Shown here: in pieces, positions 23,204-60,440 of the stretch
Layout of the letters: every line of letters begins with the position of its first letter
How positions within the stretch are numbered: the first letter of the stretch is position 1
Assembly: GCA_021778845.1 (NCBI GenBank)
Contig: JAJYBU010000013.1
Location: forward strand, 1 to 64,000
Direction: 5' to 3'
DNA from: Acidobacteriota bacterium
GTDB lineage: Bacteria > Acidobacteriota > Terriglobia > Terriglobales > Acidobacteriaceae
DNA: 64,000 bases
Notes under the pieces: generated by a model
The model's input: the letters and a program-made list of their open reading frames with translations, nothing else
Databases searched by the model: none
Told to the model about the DNA's origin: nothing
Translations under genes and position numbers: made by a program

Positions 23204-23356
23204 CCGGTTAACTCAAGATCTGTTTCCTCGATGCCAGATGTTTTGTGTTCGAAGGACCGGTTTTTGCTTTCCACGGTTGTACACGTGGAGGCGTCCGGTT
23301 CCGGGTCGCAGAAGGCAGTATTCATTGCAATTCCGTATCACTTTCAGGAGCGCCTC

Positions 23357-31360: not shown

Positions 31361-31394
31361 CTGGCCTCACTGCGCTAACTGCGCATGAGGCCAG
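31361..31394. terminator. shared terminator between convergent GH43 genes
   Basis: CTGGCCTCA (31361-31369) pairs with TGAGGCCAG (31386-31394), and the inner GCGC pair extends it. It lies between the two convergent stops and overlaps the last codons of the minus-strand gene. Confidence 0.6.
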
Positions 31395-41570: not shown

Positions 41571-42209
41571 CTACACTCCCAGCTTTGCTAGAACTTCAGA
41601 TGGACAGCCCTGCCACTGATTCTGCGGTTCGTTGCCCACATAGGGCAGGCTATGAATTCCCATCTGGCTCGTATAGAAGCCACTGAGCACCAGATCGCGC
41701 ATCTGGCTGAAGAACGCAACGCCCACAGCGTTGCTCGGTGTGGCTTTCTCTGGGTAGGCAATGCGGTCGAGCATCTCCCGTTGCCAATCCTCCGTGCTGC
41801 CGACAAACTCCTTCTGACAGCCACGCTTGCATTCAGTATCCAGCCACGCTAACCCTGCACGAATCTCCGCGAGAAGACCACCACCCTCAAACGCAAGCCA
41901 GTCGTCGATAAACTCGGGCACGCCCGCATCGTTAGCGCTACCCGACGTCTCATCCGCTGGCACTATCCAATCGCATAGTACGCAAACTGTCTTCCACTCG
42001 TGCAGCGTAAGAACCCTGAGTCGCCACGTGTCTGGATCTCCGGTTGCCAGGGCCACTCCCGTGGGAGAACCCGGAAAGCTTATGCCGATCTGCGCCGCTA
42101 GCGCAGACAGCGGCATCAGCTCCATCATCGGTAGAACCATCATCATCTTCAACATCGAGCGTCGGTGAAAACGTAGCGTTCGGTTCGGGAGAACTGCTTC
42201 TTCTTCCAT
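41571..42209 (-). CDS. gluconate 2-dehydrogenase subunit 3 family protein with TAT-like signal
   Basis: About 212 residues. The N-terminus has RFHRRSMLKMMMVLPMM, a twin-arginine-like signal, ending near ALAA. The body shows the short helical fold typical of the small (subunit 3) partner of GMC dehydrogenases: LTLHEWKTVCVLCDWIVPADETS, GVPEFIDDWLAF and VAFFSQMRDLVLSGFYTS. In characterised gluconate and fructose dehydrogenases this subunit carries the export signal for the flavoprotein, which has none. ATG 42209, with AGAGAGG five bases upstream, was chosen because a longer frame would overlap the GMC gene. It lies 47 bases after the GMC stop and ends the ten-gene operon. Confidence 0.85.
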   Translation of the reverse strand: MEEEAVLPNRTLRFHRRSMLKMMMVLPMMELMPLSALAAQIGISFPGSPTGVALATGDPDTWRLRVLTLHEWKTVCVLCDWIVPADETSGSANDAGVPEFIDDWLAFEGGGLLAEIRAGLAWLDTECKRGCQKEFVGSTEDWQREMLDRIAYPEKATPSNAVGVAFFSQMRDLVLSGFYTSQMGIHSLPYVGNEPQNQWQGCPSEVLAKLGV

Positions 42210-42256
42210 AATGCCTCTCTTGGTTGTTATCGGAGCCAGAGCCAATGCCGCCTCCT

Positions 42257-43966
42257 CTATGTGCGCTGCGCCTGCATTTGCGTTGCGATGTGTTCGGAGG
42301 TGCGCCATGCAAGCGCCAAAATTGTCAGTGTCGGATTTTTGTCTGCGAGGCTGACAAACGGGGATCCATCCGCGACAAAAAGATTTTTACAATCCCATGC
42401 CTGGCAATGAGGGTTCAGTACCGATGTCTTCGGGTCGCTCCCCATACGCGCGCCGCCAACCTCGTGAATGCCTTGGCCACCATCGGATATTCCCCAGCGT
42501 TGCTCCGCACCATAGGACTCAATCACCTTGCCGCCAGCGGCCGTCACAATTTGCTGAAAGGTCTCCTGCATGTGCCGAGCCATCAGGATCTCGTCCTCGC
42601 TCCACTGGAAGTGAAACTTCAGCACCGGAATCCCCCACTGGTCTACGGCCTTCTCGTCGATCTCGCAATAACTCTGCTCATTCGGAATCATCTCGCCTCG
42701 CCCATGAAAACTCACGAACGCCCCATAGAGTTTACGGCTCTTTCTCTTTAATTCCACTCCGTATCCGCCGCCCAAGAGCCCCTCTGCTCCACTCAGCAGC
42801 CCCGGCGCGGGCATCCCGCTGCGTCCCCCACTAATCTCAATGTGATAGCCGCGTGAGAAGGGGAGTTCGCCTTGCGCCTGTTCCTTGTACTTCCACCACG
42901 GCATGAAAAGATGCATACCGCCCACACCGTCTTCGTTGTGGACCGGCAGATCCATCAGCGCAGGCAAGCATCCCGTCACGTCCGACATTACGGTATCCAT
43001 CAGGTATTTTCCGACCAGCCCGCTGGAGTTTGCCAATCCGTTCGGGTAGCGCTCGCTGCGCGAATTCAGCAGTAGTCGCACCGTTTCGCAGGCGCTCGCC
43101 GCAAGAACAACTGCCTTGCCGTCTACCTCTACCGTTTCGCCAGACTTCTTGTCGATATACGAAACACCGGTAGCCAGCCCATCCGGCGAGGTCCGTACCT
43201 TGGATACCATCGCATTGCAGCGGATCACCAGATTGCCGGTAAGCAGCGCCGGATACAGTAGGACGGCAGGCGACGAGAAGTTCGATCCCATACGGCAGCC
43301 GCGCTGGCACTGTGCAACATAATGACACGCAGGTCGCTCGCCCTTCGGCCGAGTGAGAATCGCCAACCGCGAGGGTATACACGGAATCTTCAATGCACCA
43401 CACGCCTTCTGCACCAATCGCTCATAACAGCGTGGAGCCGGAGGGGGCTGATACCTTCCGTCAGGAAGATTCTCCATGCCTTCCATTGAGCCAAACACGC
43501 CGATCAAATCTTCTGTCCGGTCGTAATATGGAGCTAATTCCTCGTAGCTGATCGGCCAGTCGAAGCCCTTTCCGTCGCGGCTGCGCGGCTTGAAATCGTA
43601 AGGTCCGTTGCGCAGAGAAATACGCCCCCATGTATTAGTGCGGCCCCCAAGCATCCGCGACCGATACCACTTCCAGTCGGTTCCCGCAGCGCAGGTATAC
43701 GGCTCGCCTTCGACCTTCCACCCTCCCACTGCCGCATCGAATCCACCCGAAGGATGCGTGTTGTTCATTGCTCCGCGATGCGGTGCGTCATACCCCCACT
43801 GTAGCCATTTGGAATCCTTGGAAGTGTCATACCAGTCGCCCGCCTCCAGCAGCAGGCACTTCATGCCCACCTTGGCCAGTTGATACGCGGCCATCCCCCC
43901 ACCAGCTCCAGAGCCTACGATGATCACATCGTATCCTTCATCATTTGCAAAATCGGCATCGCTCAT
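42257..43966 (-). CDS. GMC-family FAD-dependent oxidoreductase
   Basis: A 569-residue flavoprotein of the gluconate/fructose dehydrogenase large-subunit type. The FAD-binding VGSGAGGGMAAYQLA is at residues 17-31 and LLLEAGDWYD follows. GRTNTWGRISLR is the second FAD contact. The C-terminal GIHEVGGARMGSDP contains the catalytic His and FVADGSPFVSLADKNPT closes the FAD site. There is no signal peptide. Export together with the TAT-tagged subunit 3 encoded next is expected from known relatives. It oxidises an alcohol or sugar and passes electrons to a cytochrome; the substrate is unknown. Its ATG overlaps the upstream binding-protein stop (ATGA). Confidence 0.88.
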   Translation of the reverse strand: MSDADFANDEGYDVIIVGSGAGGGMAAYQLAKVGMKCLLLEAGDWYDTSKDSKWLQWGYDAPHRGAMNNTHPSGGFDAAVGGWKVEGEPYTCAAGTDWKWYRSRMLGGRTNTWGRISLRNGPYDFKPRSRDGKGFDWPISYEELAPYYDRTEDLIGVFGSMEGMENLPDGRYQPPPAPRCYERLVQKACGALKIPCIPSRLAILTRPKGERPACHYVAQCQRGCRMGSNFSSPAVLLYPALLTGNLVIRCNAMVSKVRTSPDGLATGVSYIDKKSGETVEVDGKAVVLAASACETVRLLLNSRSERYPNGLANSSGLVGKYLMDTVMSDVTGCLPALMDLPVHNEDGVGGMHLFMPWWKYKEQAQGELPFSRGYHIEISGGRSGMPAPGLLSGAEGLLGGGYGVELKRKSRKLYGAFVSFHGRGEMIPNEQSYCEIDEKAVDQWGIPVLKFHFQWSEDEILMARHMQETFQQIVTAAGGKVIESYGAEQRWGISDGGQGIHEVGGARMGSDPKTSVLNPHCQAWDCKNLFVADGSPFVSLADKNPTLTILALAWRTSEHIATQMQAQRT

Positions 43967-45195
43967 TCCTTCACCTCCGTCATCCGCACCAAATGCAGAG
44001 CTGCTCGGTCATTACCTTCGTGGTCGAAGGAGATTCGTCCGGAAGCTCCGTTGAAATTTTGTACCCCGACCAACACATCACGTACTCGCGCACGATTGGC
44101 TCCTGCAATGTGTACGGCTCGCACAGTGACCGCTACCGCGTCATACGTCTCGGCTGCGACTGCGCTCGGAAATATTCCCGTCGCTTGCCGGTAACGCATC
44201 GCGAAACGCTGCCTCACAACCGTATCCTCACCACCTGCGGCGACAGTCCAAACTTCGGGCACACTTGGACCACCCTCAGTAGTGCTCGTCATTCCGGAGC
44301 CTGTCTGCGCTGCTTGCTGCGAGAGGAAGTACGGCTCCTTTACCCTTGCACGTTTCAGCGCATGCAGCAGACGTCTCGCCGTCTCCGCCCCGGTCCAGAT
44401 CACTACAGCCTGTGGCGATACTGCCTGAATTCGCCTCATGACAGGTTGGAAATCCATGCTCAGCGGATCCAGCGCGACGCCATCAGGCGGACCAACTCCA
44501 AGCTCTCCCGCTGCCTGGTCCATTGCTTCGATGCCGCGCCGCCCGTCATGATCCTGCTCCGTGATCAGGAGCACCGTCTTCAGCCCCTTGTCGCGGTAGA
44601 TACCCTGCGCTATCGCCCGTGCTTCCGCAACATCGCTCGCGCCCATTCGGAAGATCCATGGTATGTCGATCTGTGTTGTCGTCGAATCGGCTGATAGCGT
44701 GAGCACGGGCACACCCATTCTGTTGCCCACCTGCTCGGTCAAATGTGTATCCACTCCGCTCGTTGACGTAATCACGGCGACAGCATCATCATCAAGAATC
44801 AGATGGATCACCGTGTCCGAAACTATACCCCACGATGGCCCGCTCTCATCCTGAATGTCCAGCACGACGCGCCGTCCACGAGGTAACACATTGCCACCGG
44901 CGTCCTGTAGCGCCATCTCGGCCGCCGAAACCATCGCGTCTCCTTCTGGCTTCTCCACACCGTGTAGCGGTACCAGCAGACCGATGTTGATAACCGATCC
45001 GGTCAAATCGTTGATCGTGTCCCGCCCAGGCCCCGCATAGCTCTCGCCCTCGGTCGCGATGGAGGCGTACGGAATCGGTGCACTGTTCCGGCTCTGCGCT
45101 CTCGCTCCCAACAAGAGAGAAGCCACAGCCACCGAGCACACGCTCACCAGCTTCCATCCCCACCTCCTCAGCAGCTCATCGCGTATATGCCGCAC
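43963..45195 (-). CDS. ABC-type branched-chain amino acid-like substrate-binding protein
   Basis: A 410-residue exported protein (signal LVSVCSVAVASLLLGARAQ). From residue ~60 it follows the LivJ/LivK (Peripla_BP_6) fold: INIGLLVPLHGVEKPEGDAM, AAEMALQDAGGNVLPRGRR, AVITSTSGVDTHLTEQV, MGVPVLTLSADSTT, and the C-terminal YDAVAVTVRAVHIAGANRARV. Such proteins bind amino acids, aromatic acids or alcohol-pathway intermediates. No permease or ATPase gene is near, so it may sense or buffer a ligand, or use distant transporter genes. It overlaps the next gene by ATGA and the previous binding protein by 20 bases. It is the second of two tandem, divergent binding proteins in the operon. Confidence 0.85.
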   Translation of the reverse strand: MRHIRDELLRRWGWKLVSVCSVAVASLLLGARAQSRNSAPIPYASIATEGESYAGPGRDTINDLTGSVINIGLLVPLHGVEKPEGDAMVSAAEMALQDAGGNVLPRGRRVVLDIQDESGPSWGIVSDTVIHLILDDDAVAVITSTSGVDTHLTEQVGNRMGVPVLTLSADSTTTQIDIPWIFRMGASDVAEARAIAQGIYRDKGLKTVLLITEQDHDGRRGIEAMDQAAGELGVGPPDGVALDPLSMDFQPVMRRIQAVSPQAVVIWTGAETARRLLHALKRARVKEPYFLSQQAAQTGSGMTSTTEGGPSVPEVWTVAAGGEDTVVRQRFAMRYRQATGIFPSAVAAETYDAVAVTVRAVHIAGANRARVRDVLVGVQNFNGASGRISFDHEGNDRAALHLVRMTEVKE

Positions 45196-46555
45196 GTGTT
45201 ACCTTCCAATCGGTGCGCTGCTCAGGCCAATACACAAACTTTCCGTCACGAATCTCCGCAAACGTCACAGGCGCAATGTTATTCAGCGTGTAATCGAAAT
45301 ACGCATTGCCCCCGACCCCAACATAGCCCTTCATCTCGTACTCGCGCAGGGCATCCATGATCCGCCCACGATTGAGTCCCGCCTTGTTGATTGCGGCCAT
45401 CAGCATGGTGGTGCCATCGTACGCATACGCTGCATACGCATCCGGTTCCGCATGAAAGCGGTCCATATATCGTTGCCGGAAGGTCTGCCACCGTGGATCG
45501 CTTCGTGTCGGATCGGTGGCGCTGACCGTGACCAGACCCTCCGCCGCCGCACCAGCGATCTTCACCACATCCGGATAGCAGATCCGACTGCTGCCAAACA
45601 CCGGTTCTTGCATACCCAGTGAGCGCATTTGCTTCAAAACGAGGCCAGCTTGTGCTGCGTTACCCCAAATCACCAGGCCATCGATTCTGGAAGCCTCGAG
45701 CGTGTGCAGTTGCGAGGAGAAATCTTTTGTGCTCGCTGCATACCAGACCTCCACAACTGGCTGATGGCCAATACGCCGCGCCGTGTCGGCAAATACCTCC
45801 TTGCCCGCTCGCCCATAGCGGTTATTGACCTGCAGGATACCGATCCGCTTTAACTTGCGTTGTAAAAAAATGTAGTCAGCCAGCGCATAACCCTGCTGCC
45901 GGTCGTCCGGAAAGTTATGCATCAGCCAGGGGATCGCAGTCTCGGTAACGGTGGGATCGTTCGTCGCAGTATCCATAATGGGCATTTCTAGCTTCAGTGT
46001 CGCGCGCAGTTCGATGTGCGTCGATGAGGAATCGACCGAGCCAATCATGGCCCACGCCTGATCCTGAAACCGCATATCCACGATCGCCATAGACGACGCT
46101 CCCCACAGCGGCAGGTCGTCATGCACCTTCAGCGCAAACGGCTTCCCCTTATAGCCGCCGTTCGAATTGCCATCGTCGACCGCCAACTGCGCACCATGAA
46201 GCATCGGTATTCCATAGAGAGAATCTTCATTCTCTGCATCCAGCGGCCCTAGAAACCCCAGATTGATCGCTGTCAGTGTTGCTAAGTCTCCGTCCGGTTC
46301 ACTCCGTGCCGCACCGTCGTACTCCAAACTGTTCGGCTCCACATACCACTCTTGGTAAGGCTTCTTAAACCCCGCATACGGCGCCGCTGCTGGAGGCATA
46401 TTAGCGTAAGGCATCGCCTTTCCCTCTGTAACACTCGACGGCCCAAACGGCTGCACAGTCGAGCTCTGCGCGCCGCTCATCTGAGCATTCGCACATGCCG
46501 CCAGCGCACCGCATACAGTCAGCAGCATAATCGCGACACCGCTTCGAGTTTTCAT
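45176..46555 (-). CDS. ABC-type branched-chain amino acid-like substrate-binding lipoprotein
   Basis: About 459 residues with a lipobox-like LAACAN at the N-terminus, so a lipid anchor is likely. The core has the Peripla_BP_6 pattern: NLGFLGPLDAENEDSLYG, GAQLAVDDGNSNGGYKG, WAMIGSVDSSSTHIELRA, PIMDTATNDPTVTE, KRIGILQVNNRYGRAGKE, YAAYAYDGTTMLMAAINKAG. AGGAGG about ten bases before ATG 46555 supports this start; a longer frame would run into the DAHP-synthase gene. No ABC permease or ATPase is encoded in the window. It and the next gene form a tandem pair, which could bind related ligands or act as one unit (inference). Confidence 0.86.
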   Translation of the reverse strand: MKTRSGVAIMLLTVCGALAACANAQMSGAQSSTVQPFGPSSVTEGKAMPYANMPPAAAPYAGFKKPYQEWYVEPNSLEYDGAARSEPDGDLATLTAINLGFLGPLDAENEDSLYGIPMLHGAQLAVDDGNSNGGYKGKPFALKVHDDLPLWGASSMAIVDMRFQDQAWAMIGSVDSSSTHIELRATLKLEMPIMDTATNDPTVTETAIPWLMHNFPDDRQQGYALADYIFLQRKLKRIGILQVNNRYGRAGKEVFADTARRIGHQPVVEVWYAASTKDFSSQLHTLEASRIDGLVIWGNAAQAGLVLKQMRSLGMQEPVFGSSRICYPDVVKIAGAAAEGLVTVSATDPTRSDPRWQTFRQRYMDRFHAEPDAYAAYAYDGTTMLMAAINKAGLNRGRIMDALREYEMKGYVGVGGNAYFDYTLNNIAPVTFAEIRDGKFVYWPEQRTDWKVTRAAYTR

Positions 46556-46607
46556 AGTCCAGGTCCTCCTACTTTTCCCATGATCGGATCTGCGCCAAAT
46601 CACCCAG

Positions 46608-47510
46608 TTACGCCATGTCACTTACAGCCTCTGTTTCAGCTTCACGGTTTTGAATGAAGCGAATGATCCTGCCCAGTGTGCTTGGAGTGATCGCCTGGTC
46701 TGCGTCGCACATTGGCCGCTGTGCTTCAGGCTCCTCGCCCCAGTTCGATACTTCGATCATCAGTCCGCTGGCCCCAACCTCAATAGCGGCACGGCTGGCC
46801 CGTTCCACACTCGGCGCGGTGCCAGTTGCATGACTTGGGTCCACAATTACAGGTAGAAACGTCTCGGCATGGACCGCCGGGATAACATTCAGATCGAGCG
46901 AGTAACGCGAATACTCATTCGCCGCATGAGTTTTAATTCCACGCTCACAGAGAACGATATTCAGGTTTCCTTCGTTCGCAATATATTCGGCCGCGCCCAA
47001 CCACTCGCACAAGCTTGCAGCCATGCCGCGTTTCAGCAACACTGGTTTTCCGCTTCGGCCTACCTCCACCAGCAGCGGGTAGTTCTGCATGCTGCGCGAA
47101 CCGATCTGGAGCATGTCCGCATAGCGGCTGACGACATCGACAAGTCGCACATCCAGCACTTCGGTCACGACAGGAAGCCCTGTACGATCGCCTGCGTCCC
47201 GCAGCATCTTCAACCCCTCAACGCCGAGCCCCTGAAAATCATGCGGCGACGTCCGTGGCTTGAACGCTCCTCCGCGCAGCATATCTGCTCCCGCCGCTTT
47301 TACACGTCGCGCGACCTCTATCATCTGCTGAGCGCTCTCGACCGCGCAGGGCCCGGCAATCACCACCGGAAGCCCAACGCCAAATCGCACCATGCCTACC
47401 TCTACGACCAATCCGCCCTCAGCAAACTCTGGATGGTTTCGCCGGCTGAGGATGGGACAGAGTCGCGAGAGATCTTCAAGACCCACTCGTCCTGCAATGT
47501 TCCGTTCCAC
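46608..47510 (-). CDS. 3-deoxy-7-phosphoheptulonate (DAHP) synthase, type I-beta, without regulatory domain
   Basis: A 300-residue cytoplasmic enzyme. DAHP synthase I-beta motifs: IAGPCAVES (metal Cys55), [29 protein letters not shown] (usually IGARNMQN), [25 protein letters not shown] (metal His) and [12 protein letters not shown] with a later CDADQA supplying the Glu and Asp ligands. It condenses phosphoenolpyruvate with erythrose 4-phosphate at the head of the shikimate pathway. There is no N-terminal ACT or ferredoxin-like feedback domain, only about 40 extra residues, so it may escape aromatic feedback control. Its place in an operon of exported redox proteins is unusual and suggests a dedicated aromatic product (inference). 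The CERGIKT loop is followed by an atypical [10 protein letters not shown] segment. Confidence 0.87.
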
Positions 47511-47533
47511 GCGTACTCCTCTTCGTCTTGCGA

Positions 47534-48067
47534 CTACTTGCTGTCTGCCAATTCGGTAGCACCGCGTGTCTCAAAGATCGCCATCGCTTCCATCTCAAAC
47601 AACAAGCTAGGCCAGCACAGAATCGCCTGGATTCCGGTCGACGCCGGCAGCACATCCAGACCCTGCTCCTCAAAGAACTTTGTCCGAATTAAATTGAACT
47701 GCTCGTAATCCCGCTCGATATCGCGTAGATAGCACGTCGTCCGCACCACATCCTTCCACGTTGCGCCCTCAGACTTCAACAGTGCCGTCACGTTCTCATA
47801 CGCACGTCTCGTCTGCGCTCCAAAGTCTCCAGGATGTACCGTCTCGCCGTGCTCCCCAACGCTCGCGGTACCCGAAATCAGCAGGATCGTAATCCCCTTG
47901 ATATCCAGTCGCATTCCACGCGAAAACGACGATGGCTTCTGATACCGGTACGCCTCATTCAGCGCCTCCGGCGCCGACATCGCCTTTTTCCGCATCGCCT
48001 TCGGAGCCCCATTGCTCCCGTTCTTCATAGCCATGCCTGCTTCCGTTTCTGTCGAGATATTGCTCAT
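47534..48067 (-). CDS. Rid (YjgF/YER057c/UK114) superfamily protein lacking the deaminase arginine
   Basis: A 177-residue cytoplasmic protein of the Rid fold: [32 protein letters not shown], then [20 protein letters not shown] and FEMEAMAIF. In RidA enamine/imine deaminases the substrate-carboxylate arginine lies in PARSCV. Here the aligned segment reads PASTGIQ, so the arginine is replaced and RidA-type deamination is not expected. PASTGI is reminiscent of the C-terminal half of chorismatases, which share this fold, but at 177 residues this protein is only about half their length. It starts with an ATGA overlap with the propeller gene and is 23 bases upstream of the DAHP synthase, so a role in a chorismate-derived pathway is possible (inference). 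Confidence 0.82.
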
Positions 48068-49188
48068 TTTCCGTGCTCCTTATTCACCGCGCGCATCCCG
48101 TGGCTCAGGCCCTGCGCCGTTGCCACCCAGATGTCGTCGCCTTGAAAATCTGTGTTGAGAATGTAGGTGTGTGCCACGCTTGTCTGGGTGGCTATCCGCT
48201 CTTTGCTTCCATCCGCATGGGTCACAAGAATCTCTCCGTGCCCCGTCTTTGCATCCCGCCGATAGCTGACCCACGTATTCGTCCGCGTATCAAGCTCGCT
48301 CAGCCCTCCCTGCGTACTTGCCCACACCTCATCGCCGCGCGAGTGCACGGCATTAATAAAATTCGAAGCCAGCCCACTATCCTTTGTCAGATAGTTGTGC
48401 CAGTTCCGCCCGTCATATCCACTCAACCCAAAGTAAGTCGATGCCCAAAACGTCTTCGTGCTCTCGTTGTAAGACACGCTGCTCACAATGTTGTGGATCA
48501 ATCCCTGGTTGCGATACAGCACCAACTCCATCTCCCCATCCGGATCGTTGAATGGCTTCCATGTCTGCTTCGCAAGGTCATATGACAGCACGCCCCCACC
48601 CCACACCGCAAAATAAATCTTCTCCTTGCTCACCGAGATCCCATACCCCCAAGGCTCCGCAAACGGTGCATTGGTCTCATTGAAGATCGACCAACTCCCC
48701 GTCCTCGTATCCAGTCGATTCACTCCTGCGCCGGTCGCCACCCACACATTCTGTCCCTGCACCGCAACACCGTACACCAGATCATTCGCCAGCCCGCTGG
48801 TCATATTCGTATAGTTCGTAAACTTTCCGCCTGAGTAACGGCTGAGCCCGCCAAACGTCCCCACCCATACATCACCGTTCTCCGGGTCCACCGCAACCGA
48901 CATTACCGCGCGCCCCGCCAGTCCATCTTTTTGCGTGAACACTTTCTTCACGAGGCCATCCTCCAGCATCACCAACCCATGTGTCGTTCCCGCCCACACG
49001 CGCCCCCCATCCACCGTCACGCAGAACACCTCACCCGCAGGAAACCCATTCGCCGGCGTGTAGTTCGTCCACCTCGTGTACAGCGCCGGTGTTTGGATGG
49101 CACTCTGTGCGTTCCCACTCACCATCGCTGCAAACAAACATCCCGCAGCCACCAATACTCTTCGCATGATCCACGCACGCATCGTCAT
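48064..49188 (-). CDS. secreted two-component-regulator-propeller protein
   Basis: A 374-residue secreted protein, signal RRVLVAAGCLFAAMVSGNAQ. It is composed of Reg_prop-type propeller repeats: VWAGTTHGLVML, VWVGTFGGLSRYSGGKF, VWVATGAGVNRLDTRTG, EVWASTQGGLSELDTRT, IWVATAQGLSHG. In hybrid two-component sensors such repeats form the periplasmic sugar- or ligand-sensing domain, but this protein ends without a membrane helix, kinase or regulator domain. It may be a soluble binding protein working with another sensor or with the neighbouring propellers. Starts at 49188, 49182 or 49170 are possible. The gap to the YVTN-cytochrome gene is 8 bases, and the next gene overlaps by ATGA. Confidence 0.83.
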   Translation of the reverse strand: MTMRAWIMRRVLVAAGCLFAAMVSGNAQSAIQTPALYTRWTNYTPANGFPAGEVFCVTVDGGRVWAGTTHGLVMLEDGLVKKVFTQKDGLAGRAVMSVAVDPENGDVWVGTFGGLSRYSGGKFTNYTNMTSGLANDLVYGVAVQGQNVWVATGAGVNRLDTRTGSWSIFNETNAPFAEPWGYGISVSKEKIYFAVWGGGVLSYDLAKQTWKPFNDPDGEMELVLYRNQGLIHNIVSSVSYNESTKTFWASTYFGLSGYDGRNWHNYLTKDSGLASNFINAVHSRGDEVWASTQGGLSELDTRTNTWVSYRRDAKTGHGEILVTHADGSKERIATQTSVAHTYILNTDFQGDDIWVATAQGLSHGMRAVNKEHGK

Positions 49189-49196
49189 GATGATCC

Positions 49197-51185
49197 TTAT
49201 AACGTCTTCAGATACTCGATTAAATCGTTTAGCTGTGCCTTATTCATGTCGGAGGTCAATCCGTGTTTATCCTCTGGGTTATATGAGGTCCAGATATCTT
49301 CCAACTCCAGTGCCTCGCCATTATGCAGATACGGCGGCTTCATCGCGACACCTTCTAACTGCGGAACATCGAACGCGCTGATCGTGTCATACTTCGTCGC
49401 AGTTCCCACATTCAGTTGAACCCTGGAAGTAAAGTGTGTAAGTGGAGAATGACACGTATAACACCGTTGCATCGGAGGTATTATCGCGCCGCTATTGCTC
49501 TTGTCGCGAAAGAACATAGCTCGTCCACGCGCCTGCGCATCCGTCAACGTTCCGTCGCCAGCCAAGTGGGGGTTTTGCCTCAGATGCAGCGAGAAAATAT
49601 ACCCCACCAAATCTTCCACTTCCTTCGAATTGAATCCCTGCGACCGGAAGATGTACATCGCCGTCCTTGGCCCGTCCTGCGTCTCAAGATCCGGATTCTT
49701 TCCGTTCCACTTGAAAGGTTCAGTCCCCGCAATGCTGTACAGCGTGCGATTCTCCACTACATCGCGACCCAGTTGCGGGGTTTCCAGGCTCCACGCCAGC
49801 CCATCCGAAAGACCCTCGTGCGGATGGCACGTAGCGCACGCCATCTGCCCCTGGTAGCAATAACTCGCATCGTAAAATAGCCGCTCGCCGCGCCGCCTCT
49901 GCGTCAACTCCTTCGGGCCACCCAGATCAATCGTCGACACCATCTGTCTCCGAGTCATATCCATCACGCTGATCGTGTCGTCCATCCTGTTTGCGATATA
50001 TGCAAATTGTCCGTCCGCCGAAGCAATCACATCCGTCGGATTCCGTCCCGTTGCCACCCGTTCCGCGATAATCTCATTCGCTGAATCCAACCGGTTCGCT
50101 AACGCCAACCTTTGTGCTGCACTCCGCATCAGCAGCCTGCGCAGCTTCGTCGCATCTACAACCGACACCACATCCGCCCCCGACGCGGTCACCAGTGCCC
50201 ACCGCCCCTCCGGCGTCTCGGCCACCCCAAACCCGTCCGCGTAATAGTGGTCGATGTTATCCAGCAGCACCTCCGTCACCTGATAGCTCCCAGGCCCATC
50301 AGCACTCGAACTCGCCGGGCGAATCACCGCCATACCATGCGTCAAATACCCGCCCTGCGGAATCTGCACCAGAGGGTTCAAATTCTTCGGCCGCATAAAC
50401 GGCACCAGCACATATCCCCCAGCGCTCGAAGGTAACTCCGCAATATGCCGCATTTGGATCACGCCCGGCACATCAACTCGTGCTGCTATAACCTGTTTCG
50501 CGCAATCGATCACCGTCAACTCCGAAACCGGCGGCCGATCCGGTGGCGCCAATCGTGCCAGCAGATTCGCCACATACACACGTGTTCCATCGTTCGATAG
50601 CGCAACATACTCCGGATAGTGTCCTGCCTCCAGACGCTTCCGTTCCGTTCCCGTGCGCAGATCAATCACTGAGACGTCATTGCCCAACGTGTTCGCCACA
50701 TACAACACATCACCCGTGCGATCCGTCGTCAACCCCACAGGCCCCCATCCCACCTTCAGCGTTCGCCGCACCGCAAAGCTTTGCGCATCAATTTCCGTTA
50801 CCGCATCGCTCGTCTCATCCGACACGTACAGCGTCTTCCCATCCGGTGAAATCGCAATCCCCTTCGGGCGCGTACCCACCTTCACGCGTCGCAGCACACG
50901 CGCTGCCCGCGTGTCCACCACCAACATTACGTCGCTGTCTTCGCACACCACATACAACCACCGCCCATCGTGCGAGAGCTGCAGTGCCACCGGGCTCAGA
51001 TAGCGCACCTCAGCCTCCGGCCTCTCCACCTTCGTTCCAGGTCCGCGCCCCGCAGCCGAAGCAAGAATCGGCTGTTGCGCAAACATCAGCACAACCGCAA
51101 AAATCATCGCCAGGACTGCAACTCCAATAGCCCATTCTTCTCGATGCGTCAGTTTGTTGGACGAACTCTCACGGGGCCCACTCAT
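49197..51185 (-). CDS. membrane-anchored YVTN beta-propeller fused to diheme cytochrome c (MauG/CCP-like)
   Basis: A 662-residue protein. An N-terminal transmembrane anchor (WAIGVAVLAMIFAVVLMFA) is followed by YVTN-type propeller repeats at about residues 60-430: DGKTLYVSDETSDAVTEID, DVLYVANTLGNDVSVID, DGTRVYVANLLARL, QFAYIANRMDDTISVMD. The last ~230 residues carry two CxxCH motifs, CATCH at 450 and CYTCH at 575, in the spacing of MauG/cytochrome c peroxidase-type diheme proteins, with GMAVIRP-like loops between. Such proteins oxidise a partner or reduce peroxide; here the propeller may bind the partner. It sits between a CRTAC1 gene (ATGA overlap) and the two-component-propeller gene in the ten-gene operon. 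Confidence 0.86.
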   Translation of the reverse strand: MSGPRESSSNKLTHREEWAIGVAVLAMIFAVVLMFAQQPILASAAGRGPGTKVERPEAEVRYLSPVALQLSHDGRWLYVVCEDSDVMLVVDTRAARVLRRVKVGTRPKGIAISPDGKTLYVSDETSDAVTEIDAQSFAVRRTLKVGWGPVGLTTDRTGDVLYVANTLGNDVSVIDLRTGTERKRLEAGHYPEYVALSNDGTRVYVANLLARLAPPDRPPVSELTVIDCAKQVIAARVDVPGVIQMRHIAELPSSAGGYVLVPFMRPKNLNPLVQIPQGGYLTHGMAVIRPASSSADGPGSYQVTEVLLDNIDHYYADGFGVAETPEGRWALVTASGADVVSVVDATKLRRLLMRSAAQRLALANRLDSANEIIAERVATGRNPTDVIASADGQFAYIANRMDDTISVMDMTRRQMVSTIDLGGPKELTQRRRGERLFYDASYCYQGQMACATCHPHEGLSDGLAWSLETPQLGRDVVENRTLYSIAGTEPFKWNGKNPDLETQDGPRTAMYIFRSQGFNSKEVEDLVGYIFSLHLRQNPHLAGDGTLTDAQARGRAMFFRDKSNSGAIIPPMQRCYTCHSPLTHFTSRVQLNVGTATKYDTISAFDVPQLEGVAMKPPYLHNGEALELEDIWTSYNPEDKHGLTSDMNKAQLNDLIEYLKTL

Positions 51186-52894
51186 GGCGTCTTCCCCTTA
51201 ACTACAACCGGCTTGGTGACACTGGCCGCCGCAGGCTCTGTTACCGTCAGCACCTGGTCCGCCCTCACATCATTCAGCGTCTGTATCGTCCCGCTCGGCC
51301 AATGGATCGTCAGCTTATCCACCACCGCATGCTGTCCTAATCCAAAATGAGGCCGCGGATCATTCTGCGATAAATACCCGCTCTCCGAGGTGGCTTCCAC
51401 CCACTGGTGCAGGTCTCCAGCGACTGCCTCCAGACTTGCGCCAAAACCATCCCGGTTGCTCTGCGTTCCTACCAGCTTCACCGTCAGCCAGTGGTTTCTC
51501 GTTCCCGCAGGCGGCGTATTGTGCAACAGAATTCCTTTGCCTCCCAGTGTCATCACGAAGGCGTCAATATAGCCGTCGTTGTCGTAATCAGCGAAGCACG
51601 CTCCCCGGCTCACATTCTGTTTCTGAAAGAATTCCCCTGCTTGCAGCGACACATCCTTGAACGTTCCATCGCCATTATTGCGAAGCAACGAACTTTGCAT
51701 CGGAATCAGCCACACTAGGCCACCGTTCACAATGAACAGGTCTTTCCATCCATCATTATCGAAATCGAAAAGCCCATCCCCCCAACCCACAAATTGAGCA
51801 GAAACTGCGCCCACGCCGGACGTGTTCGTTACATCCTCAAACGACCCTCCGTCTTTTCCGTCGTTGCGCAGTAAGCGATGGTAGTGTGCATCGGAGACGA
51901 ACAACCCCTGATGCCCTTTGTTGTCGAAGTCGCCGAAGATCGGACCCATGGCTGTCGATGCTTCGCCGTTCTGCCCATAGGCAGCTCCCACTTCCGGCGC
52001 CACATCTGTAAATGTGCCGTTCCGGTTGTTACGATACAGAAAGCTTGCCATTGTGTCGTTTGCGACATAGATGTCCTGCCATCCATCGCCGTTATAATCT
52101 CCGACCGTCACCCCCATCGCACGCCCTGGCTGCGCGCTGATCCCGGAAGCTTTCGACACATCCGTGAAAGTTCCATCGCCGTTGTTATGAAACAGCCGGT
52201 TGGTCTCCGGCGCATACTCCAGCGGTCCTGGATACTGCTGCGCGGAATAATACTGACGGCTGCTCGGATCGAATTTCAAATAATTTCCAACGAACAAATC
52301 GAGTCGTCCATCGTGGTCATAGTCCAGAAATGCCGCGCCGGTCCCAAAAAATGGATTGTTCACCCCAGCCTTCGCCGTCACATCTGTAAACGTTCCATTC
52401 CCGTTGTTGTGATACAAAATTGCCGAGTTGTAATTCGTCACATACAGGTCTTCGTACCCGTCGTTATCGAAGTCCCCTGCCGTAACCCCTACTCCGATCC
52501 CTTTACCCGGCACCCCAGCCTTCGCCGTCACATCCGTAAAGGTTCCGTCGCCGTTATTGCGATACAGATGATTCGTAGCCCCCACTCCATCCGCCGCAGA
52601 GTGGTCCGCTAGTCCATCAACATGGCGCCCATTCACCACATACAAATCCATCAGACCATCGTTGTTGTAATCGATCCACGCGCACCCCGAACCCGTGCCC
52701 TCCTGGATCGAACTCAGCGCCTTCTCGCCAAACGAATGCTGAAAGCTAATTCCAGCCTTCGCCGTCACATCCTCAAACTGCGGGAGCGGCGTAGCATTCA
52801 CTACGCCAGTCGCTACCTGTGCTCCTGCCCCGAGCGCTACACTCAGCATCACACCTGTACACGCATATCGCATCTTCAAAGCTGAACTCCTCAC
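51182..52894 (-). CDS. secreted CRTAC1/ASPIC-UnbV family protein
   Basis: Up to 570 residues. A signal peptide (YACTGVMLSVALGAGAQ) is followed by VCBS/FG-GAP repeats (IDYNNDGLMDLYV, GDFDNDGYEDLYV, LDYDHDGRLDLFV, FDFDNDGWKDLFI), each next to a YRNNGDGTFTDV motif, and a terminal ASPIC/UnbV region (RPHFGLGQHAVV, IHWPSGTIQTL). Unlike the other short copies it lacks the CxxxG...CGPRGL cysteine pair; the equivalent region reads QYPGPLEYAPETN. The GTG at 52894 overlaps the HzsA-like stop (GTGA), while ATG 52873 gives a shorter signal peptide. The start is thus uncertain by seven codons. It is the second gene of the ten-gene redox operon, which sets it apart from the TPR- and TonB-linked copies. Confidence 0.85.
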   Translation of the reverse strand: MRSSALKMRYACTGVMLSVALGAGAQVATGVVNATPLPQFEDVTAKAGISFQHSFGEKALSSIQEGTGSGCAWIDYNNDGLMDLYVVNGRHVDGLADHSAADGVGATNHLYRNNGDGTFTDVTAKAGVPGKGIGVGVTAGDFDNDGYEDLYVTNYNSAILYHNNGNGTFTDVTAKAGVNNPFFGTGAAFLDYDHDGRLDLFVGNYLKFDPSSRQYYSAQQYPGPLEYAPETNRLFHNNGDGTFTDVSKASGISAQPGRAMGVTVGDYNGDGWQDIYVANDTMASFLYRNNRNGTFTDVAPEVGAAYGQNGEASTAMGPIFGDFDNKGHQGLFVSDAHYHRLLRNDGKDGGSFEDVTNTSGVGAVSAQFVGWGDGLFDFDNDGWKDLFIVNGGLVWLIPMQSSLLRNNGDGTFKDVSLQAGEFFQKQNVSRGACFADYDNDGYIDAFVMTLGGKGILLHNTPPAGTRNHWLTVKLVGTQSNRDGFGASLEAVAGDLHQWVEATSESGYLSQNDPRPHFGLGQHAVVDKLTIHWPSGTIQTLNDVRADQVLTVTEPAAASVTKPVVVKGKTP

Positions 52895-54297
52895 GGCCGC
52901 ACCGCCTTCCCCGCATTACCCACTAAAGAACTCGGAGTATCAAACCGCGTCAACGCCATCGGCGAACGATTCTCCGGAGCCAGTGCCTGGCTCTCATGGC
53001 AGCCCGAGCATCCGCGATCTTCTCCGCCGCGCACCCACATCCAACTCCGCTGCGCCTTCACCACTTCGCCCTTCTTCCCGATCAACTCCAGCCGTATCGG
53101 CACATCTGCCGGTACAGTCGCATAGAACGATCCATCCACTTCCACCGGAGCATCGCCCAACACAAGTTCTCCCGTCTGCTCCTTTGCCAGCACTCGTACA
53201 CGGGTAACATGCCCCGCAATCCGCCCACTCGCCACATCCTCGGTCGAAGACGCATCCAGGCAAAGCAGTCGCCCCGTCTTCCGCTCCGGATGCAAAATGC
53301 TTCGGTACGCCTCTACCGGGGCATGCGCGGCAATCGCCACCGCCTGCACGCCTGCCCCCTTCGCACTCCGATACACCAACTCCTGACGCCCGCTGAGTTG
53401 CAAATCCACACTGTACAAAGCCCCGCTGCGCGACACCATCAACTGTCCGTCGTCCAGCGTCGCCACCGAAGCATATCCAGACTCAGCACCACGAATCGTC
53501 ACCGCTCGCAATGCTCCTGGATGAAGCCACTCCAATGCTCCCGTCGTAGCATGCGACGTCGGTCGCTTCACGAAGATGATGGTCCCATCAGCCAACTCTT
53601 CCGCTGCACCACGAATCTCACCCGCTCCATCATCCTGACGCAGCAGCGCCAGCCCTGAGCCATCCGGATCGACTACAGACAGCGCGCGCGCATGCCCATC
53701 CACACCCGTGGACGACAGCAGCAACCGCCCACTGCGCAGCGCCGTCTCCACCTCAAACATCCCCGGTCCAAACGTAATCGCGTGCGCATCCGCGCCACTC
53801 TCCGCACTTACATATACATCCGAGGTGCGCGCAGCACCCACGCCCCGCAGCGACGTATACGCAATCTCGTGCGTCGGCAGATACACTGCCCTCACGCAGC
53901 CGACCGCACAATGCGTCACCTGTCGCGCAGTTCCGCCCGCCGCGGGTATCTCCCAGATCTGCCAGATTGAACCCTGCTGCTTTTGTCCAGCGAACAAAAG
54001 TTTGCTGCCATCAAAAGACACCCGTGGGTCTGCAACAGCGAAGAACTGCGGCGTCAGCACATCGGCAGTTTGCTGCGTTCCTGGGATCATGCGCACCAGC
54101 TGGCTTCCTTGCGGAAACCGCTGCGTCAAATCGCCCGATGCAACCACCGAAGCACGCACGATTGCAATCGCGCCGTGTCCATGGGTGGGAGGGGCCATGA
54201 CATTCGTGCTCGAATTCTGCATAGCCCCAACTTTTCCACTTACTGTACACAGAACTAGGGCAAGTCCCGTGCACGCACCTCTCCACGCTAATTTCAT
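52891..54297 (-). CDS. secreted TolB/HzsA-type beta-propeller with a C-terminal heme-c motif
   Basis: About 468 residues, with a signal peptide (ACTGLALVLCTVSGKVGAM). Propeller-type repeats run through the middle (DPRVSFDGSKLLFAGQK, IWQIWEIPAAGGTARQVTH, HEIAYTSLRGVG), resembling the middle domain of hydrazine-synthase alpha-like proteins. A later FYATVPADVPIRLELIGK sheet leads to one heme motif, GCSGCHES, starting at Cys430. Only one heme and no partner subunits are present, so hydrazine synthesis is not implied. This architecture is widespread in non-anammox bacteria. ATG 54297 is preferred to a GTG 15 bases upstream, though neither has a clear ribosome-binding site. It is the first gene of the operon, behind a promoter and palindrome at 54378-54437. 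Confidence 0.8.
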   Translation of the reverse strand: MKLAWRGACTGLALVLCTVSGKVGAMQNSSTNVMAPPTHGHGAIAIVRASVVASGDLTQRFPQGSQLVRMIPGTQQTADVLTPQFFAVADPRVSFDGSKLLFAGQKQQGSIWQIWEIPAAGGTARQVTHCAVGCVRAVYLPTHEIAYTSLRGVGAARTSDVYVSAESGADAHAITFGPGMFEVETALRSGRLLLSSTGVDGHARALSVVDPDGSGLALLRQDDGAGEIRGAAEELADGTIIFVKRPTSHATTGALEWLHPGALRAVTIRGAESGYASVATLDDGQLMVSRSGALYSVDLQLSGRQELVYRSAKGAGVQAVAIAAHAPVEAYRSILHPERKTGRLLCLDASSTEDVASGRIAGHVTRVRVLAKEQTGELVLGDAPVEVDGSFYATVPADVPIRLELIGKKGEVVKAQRSWMWVRGGEDRGCSGCHESQALAPENRSPMALTRFDTPSSLVGNAGKAVRP

Positions 54298-54377
54298 GTC
54301 TGTTTTTTGCACAGGGAAATACTGTGTTGGCCTGTGCGCCTACTTTCGGTCTCCTGATTGTGTAACGCTGCTAACGA

Positions 54378-55215: not shown

Positions 55216-56064
55216 TTAGGCTCGAGTCCTGGGCCAGAACTTCGTTCCTGACACGGTCAGCTTCAGCAGCCGTTCGCGCAGCGTCCATACCTGGGCTCGA
55301 GCATCGTGGGTGTCCGCGGCGCATAGGCGGTCCGACTGCATCAGCCCGTAGGCCGCGGCGGTCAGCAGCAGGCGAGACTGGTTGGCTCAGAAGCTGCTGC
55401 AACTGATGTCGATATCCAACGCGTGCAGTTCCTTGATCCGGTCCTCGATGTCGCCGCGCTGCCAGTAGACCTCTTCGTAGATCCACTGCGGACTCTGCTG
55501 CATGTTTCTGATGCCGAAGCACGGATTATCTTTCGGCACTTTGCCGTCGGCGCGGACCACCTCGGGCCTGCGGATCATACAGCGTTCGCGCGGCCACGTG
55601 CCGGCTGCGTAGCTTGTTTCGCTATAGATGTGTTCGGTCTTGCCTGTCACTTCGGCGAGCATGCCTGCAACCAGCACCCTCTCTTCTGCCTTGCGCTGCA
55701 GTACCGCGTTCTTAAAGTTCGACGGCGTGAGTTGCGAGGCCAGACCCAGTCCCGTCACCGGATCGTGGCCCATCAGCATCTTGTCCACCGGACCCGTGGC
55801 CAGTCGTGCCGAGTCGTTGGCGTCTGCATAGCCGCCCGCAATCGAGAAGACGAGCGGCGCCAGCAACCCGTTGAGCGAGTGCTCCACCTTGCCAGCCTGC
55901 CACTTGTCCTTCAGGCATCCGGCCAGGCCATCGATCAATTCAAAGCGCCGCCCGGCAGTCTTTACGAGTACCATTCAACCATCGGAGGAACCCTGCTGCT
56001 CGTTGAACTTCAACACCGTTGGCTTGGCAAACAGCTCTCGAAATAACAAACACTCTGACGTGAT
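55216..56064 (-). pseudogene. IS1380-family transposase relic with two nonsense codons and an internal deletion
   Basis: Read through stops, one frame gives an IS1380-like transposase: LKFNEQQGSSDG*MVLVKTAG, then RFELIDGLAGCLKDKWQAGKVEHSLNG and, near the end, YWQRGDIEDRIKEL and ISCSSF*ANQSRLLLTAAAYGLMQ. The stop at 55975-55977 probably replaces a Gly codon (GGA to TGA) and that at 55387-55389 a Trp codon (TGG to TGA). LASQLTPSNFKNAV passes almost directly into the late ERVLVAGMLAEVTGKTEHIYSE segment. A stretch of more than 100 residues that should hold the catalytic Asp residues therefore appears deleted. The upstream limit is approximate and no inverted repeats were recognised. Confidence 0.75.
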
Positions 56065-58842: not shown

Positions 58843-58912
58843 GGGTGTGCATATGAACAATCGTTTGACTAAAGCATAAATGCAGTGGAATACTTCCACA
58901 GCCGGGTTCTCT

Positions 58913-60121
58913 ATGACGAAATGGCTTGCATTGCTCCTGTTCGGAGTCTCCTCCACGCTCTACTCGCAATCGGGATATGTTCATACCGATAGCCATAACC
59001 TCGTCGCGCCCGATGGTACGGAACTCCATCTTAAAGGAACCAACCTCGGCAACTGGTTTGAGCAGGAAGGCTACATGTTCGATCTCGACGGCGGTCCTCA
59101 GTCTCCGCGCGAGATCGAAGATCTGGTCAACCAACTGATTGGCCCCGAAGATGCGGCGAAGTTCTGGCAGCAATATCGAGACACGTATGTCACCGAAGAT
59201 GACATACGATTTCTTCACGAGGCGGGTCTTAACTCGATTCGGATCCCACTCCACTACAAATACTTCGTGTCTGGAGATGATGAAGGATTTCGTTTGCTGG
59301 ACCGTGTAGTCGGATGGGCGGCGAAGTACCACATGTATGTCGTGCTCGACCTGCACTGTGCTCCCGGTGGTCAGACGGGTACGAACATTGACGACAGTTG
59401 GGGGTATCCGTGGCTTTACGAGTCCCCTGCTGAGCAACAGTTGACTATCGACATCTGGCAGCGTATCGCAAAGCACTATCGTAAGAACTCCACCGTGCTT
59501 GGCTACGATCTGCTCAACGAACCCATCCCGCATTTTCCGCAGTTACGCCAGTACAACAAGGATCTCGAGCCTATGTACAAGCGCATCACCGCGGCCATTC
59601 GCAAGGTGGATTCGCATCACGTCATTATCCTCGGTGGGGCTCAGTGGGACTCAAACTTCGATGTCTTCGGCCCTCCCTTCGATAAGAACGTGATGTACAC
59701 CTTCCATAAATATTGGACTCCGCCCACGCAAGCCGTCATCCAGCCGTACCTGGATTACCGCGCGAAGTACAACGTTCCTATCTGGCTGGGCGAGTCTGGG
59801 GAGAACAACGATGCATGGATTCATGATTTCGTCGGCGTGCTTAACCAGAACGACGTCGGGTGGGCCTTCTGGACCTATAAACGCATGGACACCACAGCCA
59901 GCATGGTGTCTTTGCAGAAGCCTGTTTACTGGGATGAGATTGTCGCGTACGCAAAGCTCCATCGCACAACTGGCGATGCCGAGAAGCTTCTCTCCGTTCG
60001 CCCCTCACTCGAGCACTCCCGCGCAGCATTTCAGGATCTGCTCCAGGAGATCACCTTTGCAAGATGCCGCGTGAACAAGGGATATCTCTCGGCTCTGAAC
60101 CTGTCCGTACCGGCTCCGTAA
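58913..60121 (+). CDS. secreted glycoside hydrolase family 5 enzyme (cellulase/glucanase-type)
   Basis: About 402 residues with a signal peptide (WLALLLFGVSSTLYSQ). GH5 (beta/alpha)8 features: LKGTNLGNWFEQEGYMF at strand 1, NSIRIPLHYKYF, VVLDLHCAPGGQTGTN, the acid/base Glu203 in LLNEPIP, and the nucleophile Glu294 in WLGESGENN. Length and motifs fit endo-beta-glucanases or exo-1,3-glucanase/glucosylceramidase-like members; the subfamily cannot be fixed by eye. ATG 58913 was chosen over one 33 bases upstream because it begins the signal peptide directly. It is 70 bases after GH92 and probably in one transcript. ACAATCGTTTGA before the gene resembles the LacI-type half-site, but weakly. Confidence 0.87.
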   Translation: MTKWLALLLFGVSSTLYSQSGYVHTDSHNLVAPDGTELHLKGTNLGNWFEQEGYMFDLDGGPQSPREIEDLVNQLIGPEDAAKFWQQYRDTYVTEDDIRFLHEAGLNSIRIPLHYKYFVSGDDEGFRLLDRVVGWAAKYHMYVVLDLHCAPGGQTGTNIDDSWGYPWLYESPAEQQLTIDIWQRIAKHYRKNSTVLGYDLLNEPIPHFPQLRQYNKDLEPMYKRITAAIRKVDSHHVIILGGAQWDSNFDVFGPPFDKNVMYTFHKYWTPPTQAVIQPYLDYRAKYNVPIWLGESGENNDAWIHDFVGVLNQNDVGWAFWTYKRMDTTASMVSLQKPVYWDEIVAYAKLHRTTGDAEKLLSVRPSLEHSRAAFQDLLQEITFARCRVNKGYLSALNLSVPAP

Positions 60122-60388: not shown

Positions 60389-60440
60389 GATTCTAAAGAT
60401 CGACTGGATGCACTGAAAGACATAAGTTTTGGGAGGCTCT

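Follow-up and report, generated by a model that had tools for sequence, protein, structure and literature searches.

A gene cluster of Acidobacteriota combining exported hydrazine synthase-like proteins with a distinct Rid family and a DAHP synthase

A run of ten genes on the minus strand was analysed in a 64,000-nucleotide stretch of DNA (the window) from a soil bacterium of the Acidobacteriota, family Acidobacteriaceae (assembly GCA_021778845.1, contig JAJYBU010000013.1, positions 1 to 64,000). In the direction of transcription the genes encode a protein resembling the alpha subunit of hydrazine synthase (HZS; HzsA-like), a CRTAC1-like protein, a fusion resembling the beta and gamma subunits (HzsBC-like), a propeller protein (Prop2c), a Rid-fold protein, a 3-deoxy-D-arabino-heptulosonate 7-phosphate (DAHP) synthase, two periplasmic binding proteins (BP1 and BP2), a GMC-family dehydrogenase and its small subunit (GdhS3). 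We read this cluster, with a probability of about 0.35, as a two-compartment redox system in which a cytoplasmic branch supplying an aromatic compound would serve a periplasmic complex built on the HZS scaffold. The new part is the cytoplasmic half, Rid and DAHP synthase; the exported half is already known as a group of HZS homologues.

The gene order HzsA-CRTAC-HzsBC-Prop2c-Rid-(DAHP synthase)-BP1-BP2 recurs in many Acidobacteriota loci, as was seen already in 34 larger ones, and because of this recurrence the arrangement is far beyond chance. For the counts, loci were picked by Rid similarity, a genome scan giving the best 80 of 458 relatives. After identical Rid stretches had been merged and loci without a Rid match above 200 bits dropped, 134 fetched loci gave 113 distinct Rid loci, the shares among which are no estimate for all relatives; HZS-like clusters whose loci lack a Rid match of that strength (L074, L076, L077 and L082 to L085) fall outside this set. 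Profile models found HzsBC or Prop2c in 77 of the 113 (the HZS-linked loci), any match being counted, which includes L129 and L159, with the HZS genes on the other strand, and L148, with a Prop2c fragment only. Prop2c immediately preceded Rid in 68 of these 77 loci, and Rid was immediately followed by BP1 (44 loci) or DAHP synthase (23 loci) in 67 of them. For DAHP synthase, 44 of the 113 Rid loci and 39 of the 77 HZS-linked ones had a gene on the same strand, in the latter 25 times downstream of Rid and 14 times upstream of HzsA; the partly readable copy of L035 was counted as missing. The GMC gene, found on the same strand in just 16 of the 77 (17 with L130, where it is on the other strand), was rejected as part of the cluster core. 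Since many contigs end inside the cluster, these gene counts are lower bounds. The initial annotation had suggested looking for conservation of an order of DAHP synthase, Rid, two binding proteins, GMC and the YVTN-diheme (HzsBC-like) gene. The order from HzsA to BP2 does recur, but with their shares of the HZS-linked loci, cut contigs included, neither GMC nor DAHP synthase is core.

The two halves of the cluster were also compared in a sample of 396 Acidobacteriota genomes chosen independently of Rid, for which three first-look candidates per genome were scored. The Rid family was found in 22 genomes, an HzsA-like protein in 21 and both in 15 (Fisher p 1.5e-17, kinship ignored); outside the family of the window the figures are 14, 15 and 9. 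In genome G319 the Rid-DAHP synthase pair and the exported genes lie on separate contigs and in G299, a single contig, Rid is far from HzsA, so the genes can co-occur without being adjacent. Together with the Prop2c-Rid adjacency, these figures refute a rare co-occurrence of the cytoplasmic and exported genes, which travel together as the initial annotation supposed. Among the best 80 relatives, the nearest loci that bear a name are from Granulicella. The cluster is also carried by the cultured strains Granulicella sp. L46 (L091) and Occallatibacter savannae AB23 (L142). Locus L155, titled Arcobacter, shows the gene order of L132 and L147 (both titled Bryobacteraceae) and of L145, and its contig is probably misassigned. 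In nine loci, for example L044:8820-10162, the Rid gene is near a 2OG-Fe(II) oxygenase gene in place of the HZS-like genes.

The Rid protein consists of 177 residues with one Rid domain. A search of 150 relatives gave 29 genomes with a match of at least 55% identity, the other matches listed reaching at most 42%. From this search the 20 comparison Rids ('CAN' rows) were also taken, which are not a pure RidA set; L062 was excluded from the cluster rows, and the Rid tree took 20 of the 34 that were aligned. In NCBIfam all 20 cluster Rids of alignment A1 have matches (E ≤0.001) to the models for chorismatase, Rid and RutC. The window protein stays below the cut-off of every NCBIfam model, with the Rid and RutC models as best matches; for the chorismatase model TIGR04444 it scores 30 bits against a cut-off of 325, the best E among the 20 members being 1.8e-10. 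Using ten chorismatase-like C-terminal domains for comparison, the 34 cluster Rids were found to hold the majority residue of these domains at positions 42, 47, 48, 68, 69, 78, 115, 151 and 152, where the 20 comparison Rids mostly differ. The window protein holds eight of the nine, the exception being Trp at 152, a position occupied by Arg in 29 and Trp in five of the 34 rows. Cys151 is invariant in the cluster Rids (34/34) and in the chorismatase-like rows (10/10) and absent from the other Rids (0/20), while Glu158 occurs in all 34 cluster Rids and all 20 comparison Rids. The arginine of RidA (Arg105 equivalent) is Ser143 in 34 of 34 cluster Rids. As only four of the 20 comparison Rids have this arginine, its loss alone says little.

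The Rid profile matched the solved chorismatase chains 5ag3, 5a3k and 4bps with E values from 2.9e-7 to 3.9e-5, and Cys151 and Glu158 fall on residues 327 and 334 of chain 5ag3, as derived from the end coordinates of the match, no alignment being printed. Chains 5ag3 and 5a3k are presumably both Hyg5. The resemblance is to the C-terminal domain of the FkbO/Hyg5 chorismatases, with equivalents of Cys327 and Glu334 and the motifs PSFxR, SGTAS and H.GD. According to the portion of PMC7170507 available, the Glu334 equivalent is the proton donor, in Nat-hyg5 the catalytic Glu325, and Cys318, seven residues ahead of it, marks the CH-Hyg5 type; the same spacing of Cys151 and Glu158 would make Cys151 a Hyg5-type cysteine. 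The cluster protein differs from these chorismatases in having one domain and not two, in scoring far under the family cut-off and in standing outside their group in the tree. An identity as bona fide chorismatase was rejected on these three grounds and the comparison is kept solely in the sense of 'works like'; an identity as RidA imine deaminase was disfavoured. Judged by sequence, the Rid protein is a distinct conserved family with chorismatase-like residues and an overall profile nearer to that of ordinary Rids. The ten comparison domains belong to two-domain chorismatase-like proteins of Acidobacteriota (L169 to L178), themselves under the TIGR04444 cut-off. Matches to TIGR04444 at E ≤1e-12 were seen in 24 of 247 genomes; some are partial and one is the Rid family gene of G319.

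The DAHP synthase passes the type I-beta model TIGR01361 with 320.4 bits against a cut-off of 267.75. Its residues 29-288 correspond to positions 76-328 of PRK08673, and with the match beginning at position 76 the N-terminal regulatory domain present in some type I-beta members is missing. The metal and substrate motifs GPC, KPRTSP, LLKRG and DPSH are retained in the alignment with 1vs1. An identity as NeuB or KDO8P synthase was rejected, the scores being far under those cut-offs. Cluster copies have 36-99 residues ahead of GPC in 21 of 26 loci and 100-139 in five, as compared with 103-194 in 24 non-cluster rows, of which L001 and L219 are the same gene; the lengths were counted from the upstream stop and are upper bounds, and the 26 are those of 32 cluster loci in which the motif was located. 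In a tree of 47 rows the copies downstream of Rid formed a clade of 16, window included (support 100/100), nine upstream copies joined four paralogues found elsewhere in the genomes (100/99), and the copies of L081 and L082 made up a third group. Three of these four paralogues (L227 not included) have 105, 106 and 126 residues ahead of GPC. A single clade for all 27 cluster copies was rejected by the approximately unbiased (AU) test with p-AU 0.034. Compared with an earlier tree of 65 rows, in which a row labelled housekeeping (HK_L223) was the cluster copy of L056, the 47-row tree is without deep-branching rows that score as KDO8P synthase, near copies and one truncated row. Given the tree placements and the short N-termini, repeated recruitment of a DAHP synthase without regulatory domain is the simplest reading, and the sequences favour at least two recruitments into the cluster, mostly without that domain. 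Five loci carry a Rid-DAHP synthase pair with no HzsBC or Prop2c nearby; in two of the five a contig end cuts the locus. In distant Acidobacteriota (L071:9536-13220 and L079:6235-10273) such a pair is followed by a TPR/PD40-propeller gene, with no HZS-like genes nearby.

For the exported half, homology to modules of HZS alpha, beta and gamma was found by sequence, alignment and fold search. The HzsA-like protein scores 64.8 bits with PF18582 (HZS_alpha; cut-off 26.6), for which it is the sole match of the source genome, and its sequence matches HZS alpha of PDB entry 5c2v (5c2v_A). That chain is also the best PDB match of its predicted model (mean predicted local distance difference test score, pLDDT, of 76) at E 1e-19 and TMq 0.69, the next different protein following at E 1.7e-9. 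With the curated HZS alpha model it reaches 68.5 bits, below the cut-off of 800. The likeness to the anammox enzyme covers the N-terminal and middle modules of alpha; the C-terminal heme domain is missing. CxxCH is present as a single copy in 15 of 15 HzsA-like proteins, heme alphaII thus being absent, and no Tyr corresponding to the heme ligand Tyr591 was seen by eye within ten residues after CxxCH in the same 15 rows. The HzsBC-like protein, with 165 bits for NF052342 (below the cut-off of 1250) and 47.6 bits for CCP_MauG, covers, in the alignment to chains B and C of 5c2v, nearly all of HZS beta and the two halves of HZS gamma; beta and gamma are fused here. Two CxxCH motifs are present in 13 of 14 HzsBC-like rows and three in one. 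Trp493 aligns with gamma His144 and is conserved in all 14 rows. The counterpart of gamma Cys165 in the window protein is Gly505; the residue preceding this position is Asp in eight rows (window included), Cys in five and Gly in one, so that Cys165 may be kept in some HzsBC-like relatives. With Tyr591, heme alphaII and gamma Cys165 lacking in the window and His144 replaced by Trp, these key residues are missing and an identity as hydrazine synthase was rejected.

The CRTAC1 gene is usually placed between the two heme-subunit genes in the HZS-linked loci. This agrees with the non-anammox HZS homologues of clades I to III described in PMC12758564 (Hagglund et al. 2025), where, in the part of the paper available, genes for alpha, CRTAC1 and a fused beta-gamma protein occur together, two ABC binding-protein genes lie near or downstream of some clusters, and the homologues have lost key HZS residues and carry a Trp like that of MauG and cytochrome c peroxidase. 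Since gene set, residue losses and Trp agree with that account, the three exported proteins (HzsA-like, CRTAC1, HzsBC-like) are, on sequence grounds, members of this published group. Their heme content appears most like that of clade II, which as described there is likewise without heme alphaII and extra hemes, and the alpha-CRTAC1-betagamma order is that of the window. Elsewhere in the source genome two open reading frames (ORFs) of 415 and 462 residues (L229 on contig C14 and L230 on C52) carry eight CxxCH motifs each and match the multi-haem cytochrome family PF13447.

BP1 and BP2 have branched-chain-amino-acid-type binding proteins as nearest solved relatives; in loci with an upstream DAHP synthase BP1 is longer and has a weak BP2-like stretch. 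The nearest solved relatives of the GMC protein are glucose and fructose dehydrogenases. It shares with the enzymes of this group that depend on FAD a GMC catalytic subunit paired with a Gluconate_2-dh3-type small subunit with a leader resembling those of twin-arginine translocation (TAT), and differs from them in that no dedicated cytochrome subunit gene adjoins GMC, for which the HZS-like diheme protein is a possible partner.

From the gene set and order, the homologies, conservation and co-occurrence, the residue signatures and the two DAHP synthase positions with their tree, we infer a Rid activity, the identity and export of its product, the formation of a complex and a direction of electron flow as follows. 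The DAHP synthase without regulatory domain would feed the shikimate pathway from phosphoenolpyruvate and erythrose 4-phosphate, and the Rid protein, acting as a single-domain chorismatase-like enzyme, would turn chorismate, or a compound close to it, into pyruvate and a small acid of the hydroxybenzoate type. The acid would get to the periplasm and be held there by BP1 and BP2. A complex of the HzsA-like and fused HzsBC-like proteins, with CRTAC1 and Prop2c, would use it at the diheme centre resembling MauG and cytochrome c peroxidase, where the acid could be a substrate, a mediator or a cofactor. The GMC sugar dehydrogenase and its TAT-tagged subunit would feed in electrons in some lineages, that of the window included. 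Clusters without a nearby DAHP synthase, several Bryobacterales loci among them, may use an ordinary DAHP synthase. That DAHP synthase and Rid together make a small aromatic compound had been put forward in the initial annotation; the chorismatase-like residues of Rid and the tree favouring repeated recruitment of DAHP synthase lend this weight, the activity itself being putative.

Several results weigh against this two-compartment system. In 38 of the 77 HZS-linked loci DAHP synthase was not found on the same strand, and 36 of the 113 Rid loci are without HzsBC or Prop2c, some of them adjoining 2OG-oxygenase or PSCyt/DUF1501 genes. At the thresholds used, seven of the 22 Rid genomes had no HzsA match and six of the 21 HzsA genomes no Rid match. 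No exporter is encoded among the ten operon genes. As to Rid, ordinary Rid proteins were the best matches in the PDB profile search (E 2.8e-15), and in hhalign the cluster Rids scored 188 with other Rids and 120 with chorismatases. In the tree the chorismatase rows formed one group at 100/100, with the cluster Rids outside it, between chorismatases and other Rids. Known chorismatases have a two-domain architecture, all Rids compared share Glu158 and Gly66, and with the comparison Rids mostly lacking it too, loss of the RidA arginine is a weak mark. The Rid model (mean pLDDT 76) has the Rid fold; among the best 50 of 154 PDB matches (E ≤0.001), which are Rid-family by title or known relatives, no chorismatase was present. 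The p-AU of 0.034 against a single DAHP synthase clade is not strong.

Other explanations of the same genes were considered. Rid may be a metabolite-repair or imine/enamine-handling enzyme and the DAHP synthase an extra isozyme for aromatic amino acids, both co-regulated with a periplasmic oxidative system and with no dedicated product. Such a role fits the Rid and RutC models as best NCBIfam matches, all under their cut-offs, a profile score nearer to other Rids and the occurrence of the family in other gene contexts. It is at odds with the sharp identity gap to other Rids in the matches listed, with the two DAHP synthase positions and their separate tree placements, and with the serine found in every cluster Rid in place of the RidA arginine; changing this arginine nearly abolished imine hydrolysis, yet Ser stands at this position in about 10% of RidA proteins, according to the part of PMC4433059 available. 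We consider this explanation unlikely. From general knowledge, Rid-fold proteins handle imines and DAHP synthase-like enzymes start aminoshikimate-type routes, so that the pair might instead begin such a route, from imino-erythrose 4-phosphate to an aminohydroxybenzoate. This is very improbable, as the additional genes met most often around the HZS-linked loci encode an amidase (in 11 loci) and a Crp regulator (in 10), and no aminotransferase of such a route is among the annotated neighbours, the rarer families not all being annotated.

Two further explanations concern the exported complex itself, which could, like hydrazine synthase, process an external nitrogen compound or other inorganic substrate, the cytoplasmic genes being unrelated support. 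The resemblance to HZS beta and gamma and to the N-terminal and middle parts of alpha speaks for this, as do the two cytochromes with eight CxxCH in the source genome and a Crp/FNR-type regulator with an N-terminal CxxC, encoded just upstream of HzsA in 10 of the 113 loci; no such regulator was found upstream of HzsA in the window. The absence of Tyr591 and heme alphaII, the Trp in place of gamma His144 and the lack of any Cys at or beside the gamma Cys165 position in the window make it distinctly unlikely, and PMC12758564, in its available part, holds the same view of its own homologues. Alternatively, a MauG-like complex might oxidise aromatic side chains and in this way mature a protein of the cluster, such as a binding protein or CRTAC1, with the shikimate gene covering aromatic amino acids. 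The invariant Trp493 of the MauG and cytochrome c peroxidase type and the CRTAC1 gene lying mostly between those of the two heme subunits would suit such a function, which leaves the Rid family and its chorismatase-type residues unexplained and to which we give small odds.

Compared with RidA proteins, the cluster Rids share fold and overall profile and differ in the change of arginine to serine, the specific Cys and the N-terminal motif. In phenazine-type biosynthesis operons a DAHP synthase stands beside a chorismate-using enzyme. The cluster is similar in that an operon-borne DAHP synthase has as its partner an enzyme possibly acting on chorismate; it differs in the class of this enzyme, and those operons have no HZS-like heme complex. 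Paludibaculum fermentans is a species which we take to be an acidobacterium. It is named in PMC12758564, the full text of which does not contain the terms 'dahp synthase', 'rida' or 'acidobacteri'; the window cluster has DAHP synthase and Rid. Genes similar to hzs were also reported from metagenome-assembled genomes of Planctomycetota and KSB1 in PMC10732223, the available part of which suggests a broader HZS-like family with other substrates; these too are distant HZS relatives, and DAHP synthase or Rid partners are not described in that part. The homology of HZS gamma to MauG and bacterial peroxidases is noted in the portion of PMC12607021 available. Among the open-licence papers listed in literature searches, none linking HZS homologues to DAHP synthase or Rid was found. 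The initial statement that no described pathway has this gene set is in part superseded, as alpha/CRTAC1/beta-gamma clusters, some with two binding-protein genes, are published.

The ten ORFs of the initial annotation were confirmed in the window (Table 1), and the names read from motifs agree with the Pfam and NCBIfam families HZS_alpha, FG-GAP/ASPIC, YVTN propeller with CCP_MauG, Reg_prop, Ribonuc_L-PSP, DAHP_synth_1, Peripla_BP_6 (twice), GMC and Gluconate_2-dh3. Four-base overlaps join HzsA/CRTAC, CRTAC/HzsBC, Prop2c/Rid and BP2/GMC, and gaps of 8 and 23 bases separate HzsBC from Prop2c and Rid from DAHP synthase. The longest ORFs overlap by 14 bases (DAHP synthase/BP1), 20 bases (BP1/BP2) and 52 bases (GMC/GdhS3); these three spacings depend on the choice of start, later start codons giving some short gaps. 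A scan for promoters and terminators gave no excess of sites over shuffled sequence.

Table 1. Genes of the cluster and their positions in the window
Feature	Position	Strand	Characteristics
HzsA-like exported protein	52891..54312	-	propeller and HZS alpha middle domain, one CxxCH (residues 435-439); PF18582
CRTAC1-like FG-GAP/ASPIC-UnbV exported protein	51182..52894	-	PF13517, PF07593
HzsBC-like fusion	49197..51185	-	YVTN propeller (HZS beta-like) and MauG/CCP-like diheme domain (HZS gamma-like); CxxCH at 450 and 575
Prop2c, exported two-component-regulator-type propeller	48064..49188	-	Reg_prop PF07494, 30.9 bits (cut-off 20.4)
Rid-fold protein, distinct family	47534..48067	-	Ribonuc_L-PSP, 62.2 bits; chorismatase-type residues C151, E158, PSSFSR 45-50, SGTAS 65-69
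DAHP synthase, type I-beta core without N-terminal regulatory domain	46608..47510	-	TIGR01361
Periplasmic binding protein 1 (BP1, Peripla_BP_6)	45176..46621	-	PF13458, 145.3 bits
Periplasmic binding protein 2 (BP2, Peripla_BP_6)	43963..45195	-	PF13458, 118.2 bits
GMC-family FAD dehydrogenase, accessory	42257..43966	-	PF05199/PF00732
Gluconate_2-dh3 small subunit (GdhS3), accessory	41571..42308	-	PF13618, 89.5 bits; twin-arginine-like leader RRSMLK read from sequence

The source genome comprises 3.77 Mb in 79 contigs with a completeness of 89%. Downstream, the neighbouring gene ends 331 bases from the operon and opens a run that was read, without family search, as genes for sugar nucleotides. 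A DDE_Tnp_1_4 transposase remnant (55387-55974) lies upstream of HzsA, between the operon and a GH92 gene, and glycoside hydrolases of the families GH92, GH5 and GH43 flank the operon at 56587-60121 and 31367-32407. An amidase (PF01425) is encoded at 32801-34237, a family found near the HZS-like cluster in 11 of the 113 loci. Three large ORFs of one family (1093-1329 residues) are located at 7278-10559, 23231-27220 and 60429-63851.

For HZS relatives outside anammox bacteria no known function is given in the available parts of the papers cited here. The recurring and apparently re-acquired company of Rid and DAHP synthase genes is a clue to the target of the HZS-like complex, which may be a small molecule derived from chorismate. 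The roles of Rid subfamilies lacking the RidA arginine are called unknown in the part of PMC4433059 available, and the reading as a supply branch proposes for such a family a function that can be tested. A wider proposal is that Acidobacteriota possess a secreted oxidase on the HZS scaffold that needs an aromatic redox molecule from a dedicated, feedback-free shikimate branch ending in an unrecognised single-domain chorismatase, with the DAHP synthase drafted at least twice; put in this full form it is rather doubtful. The combination of cytoplasmic and exported genes, much of it kept in relatives, hints at an undescribed, self-made redox molecule, and if true this would connect heme chemistry in the periplasm of soil Acidobacteriota with the shikimate pathway.

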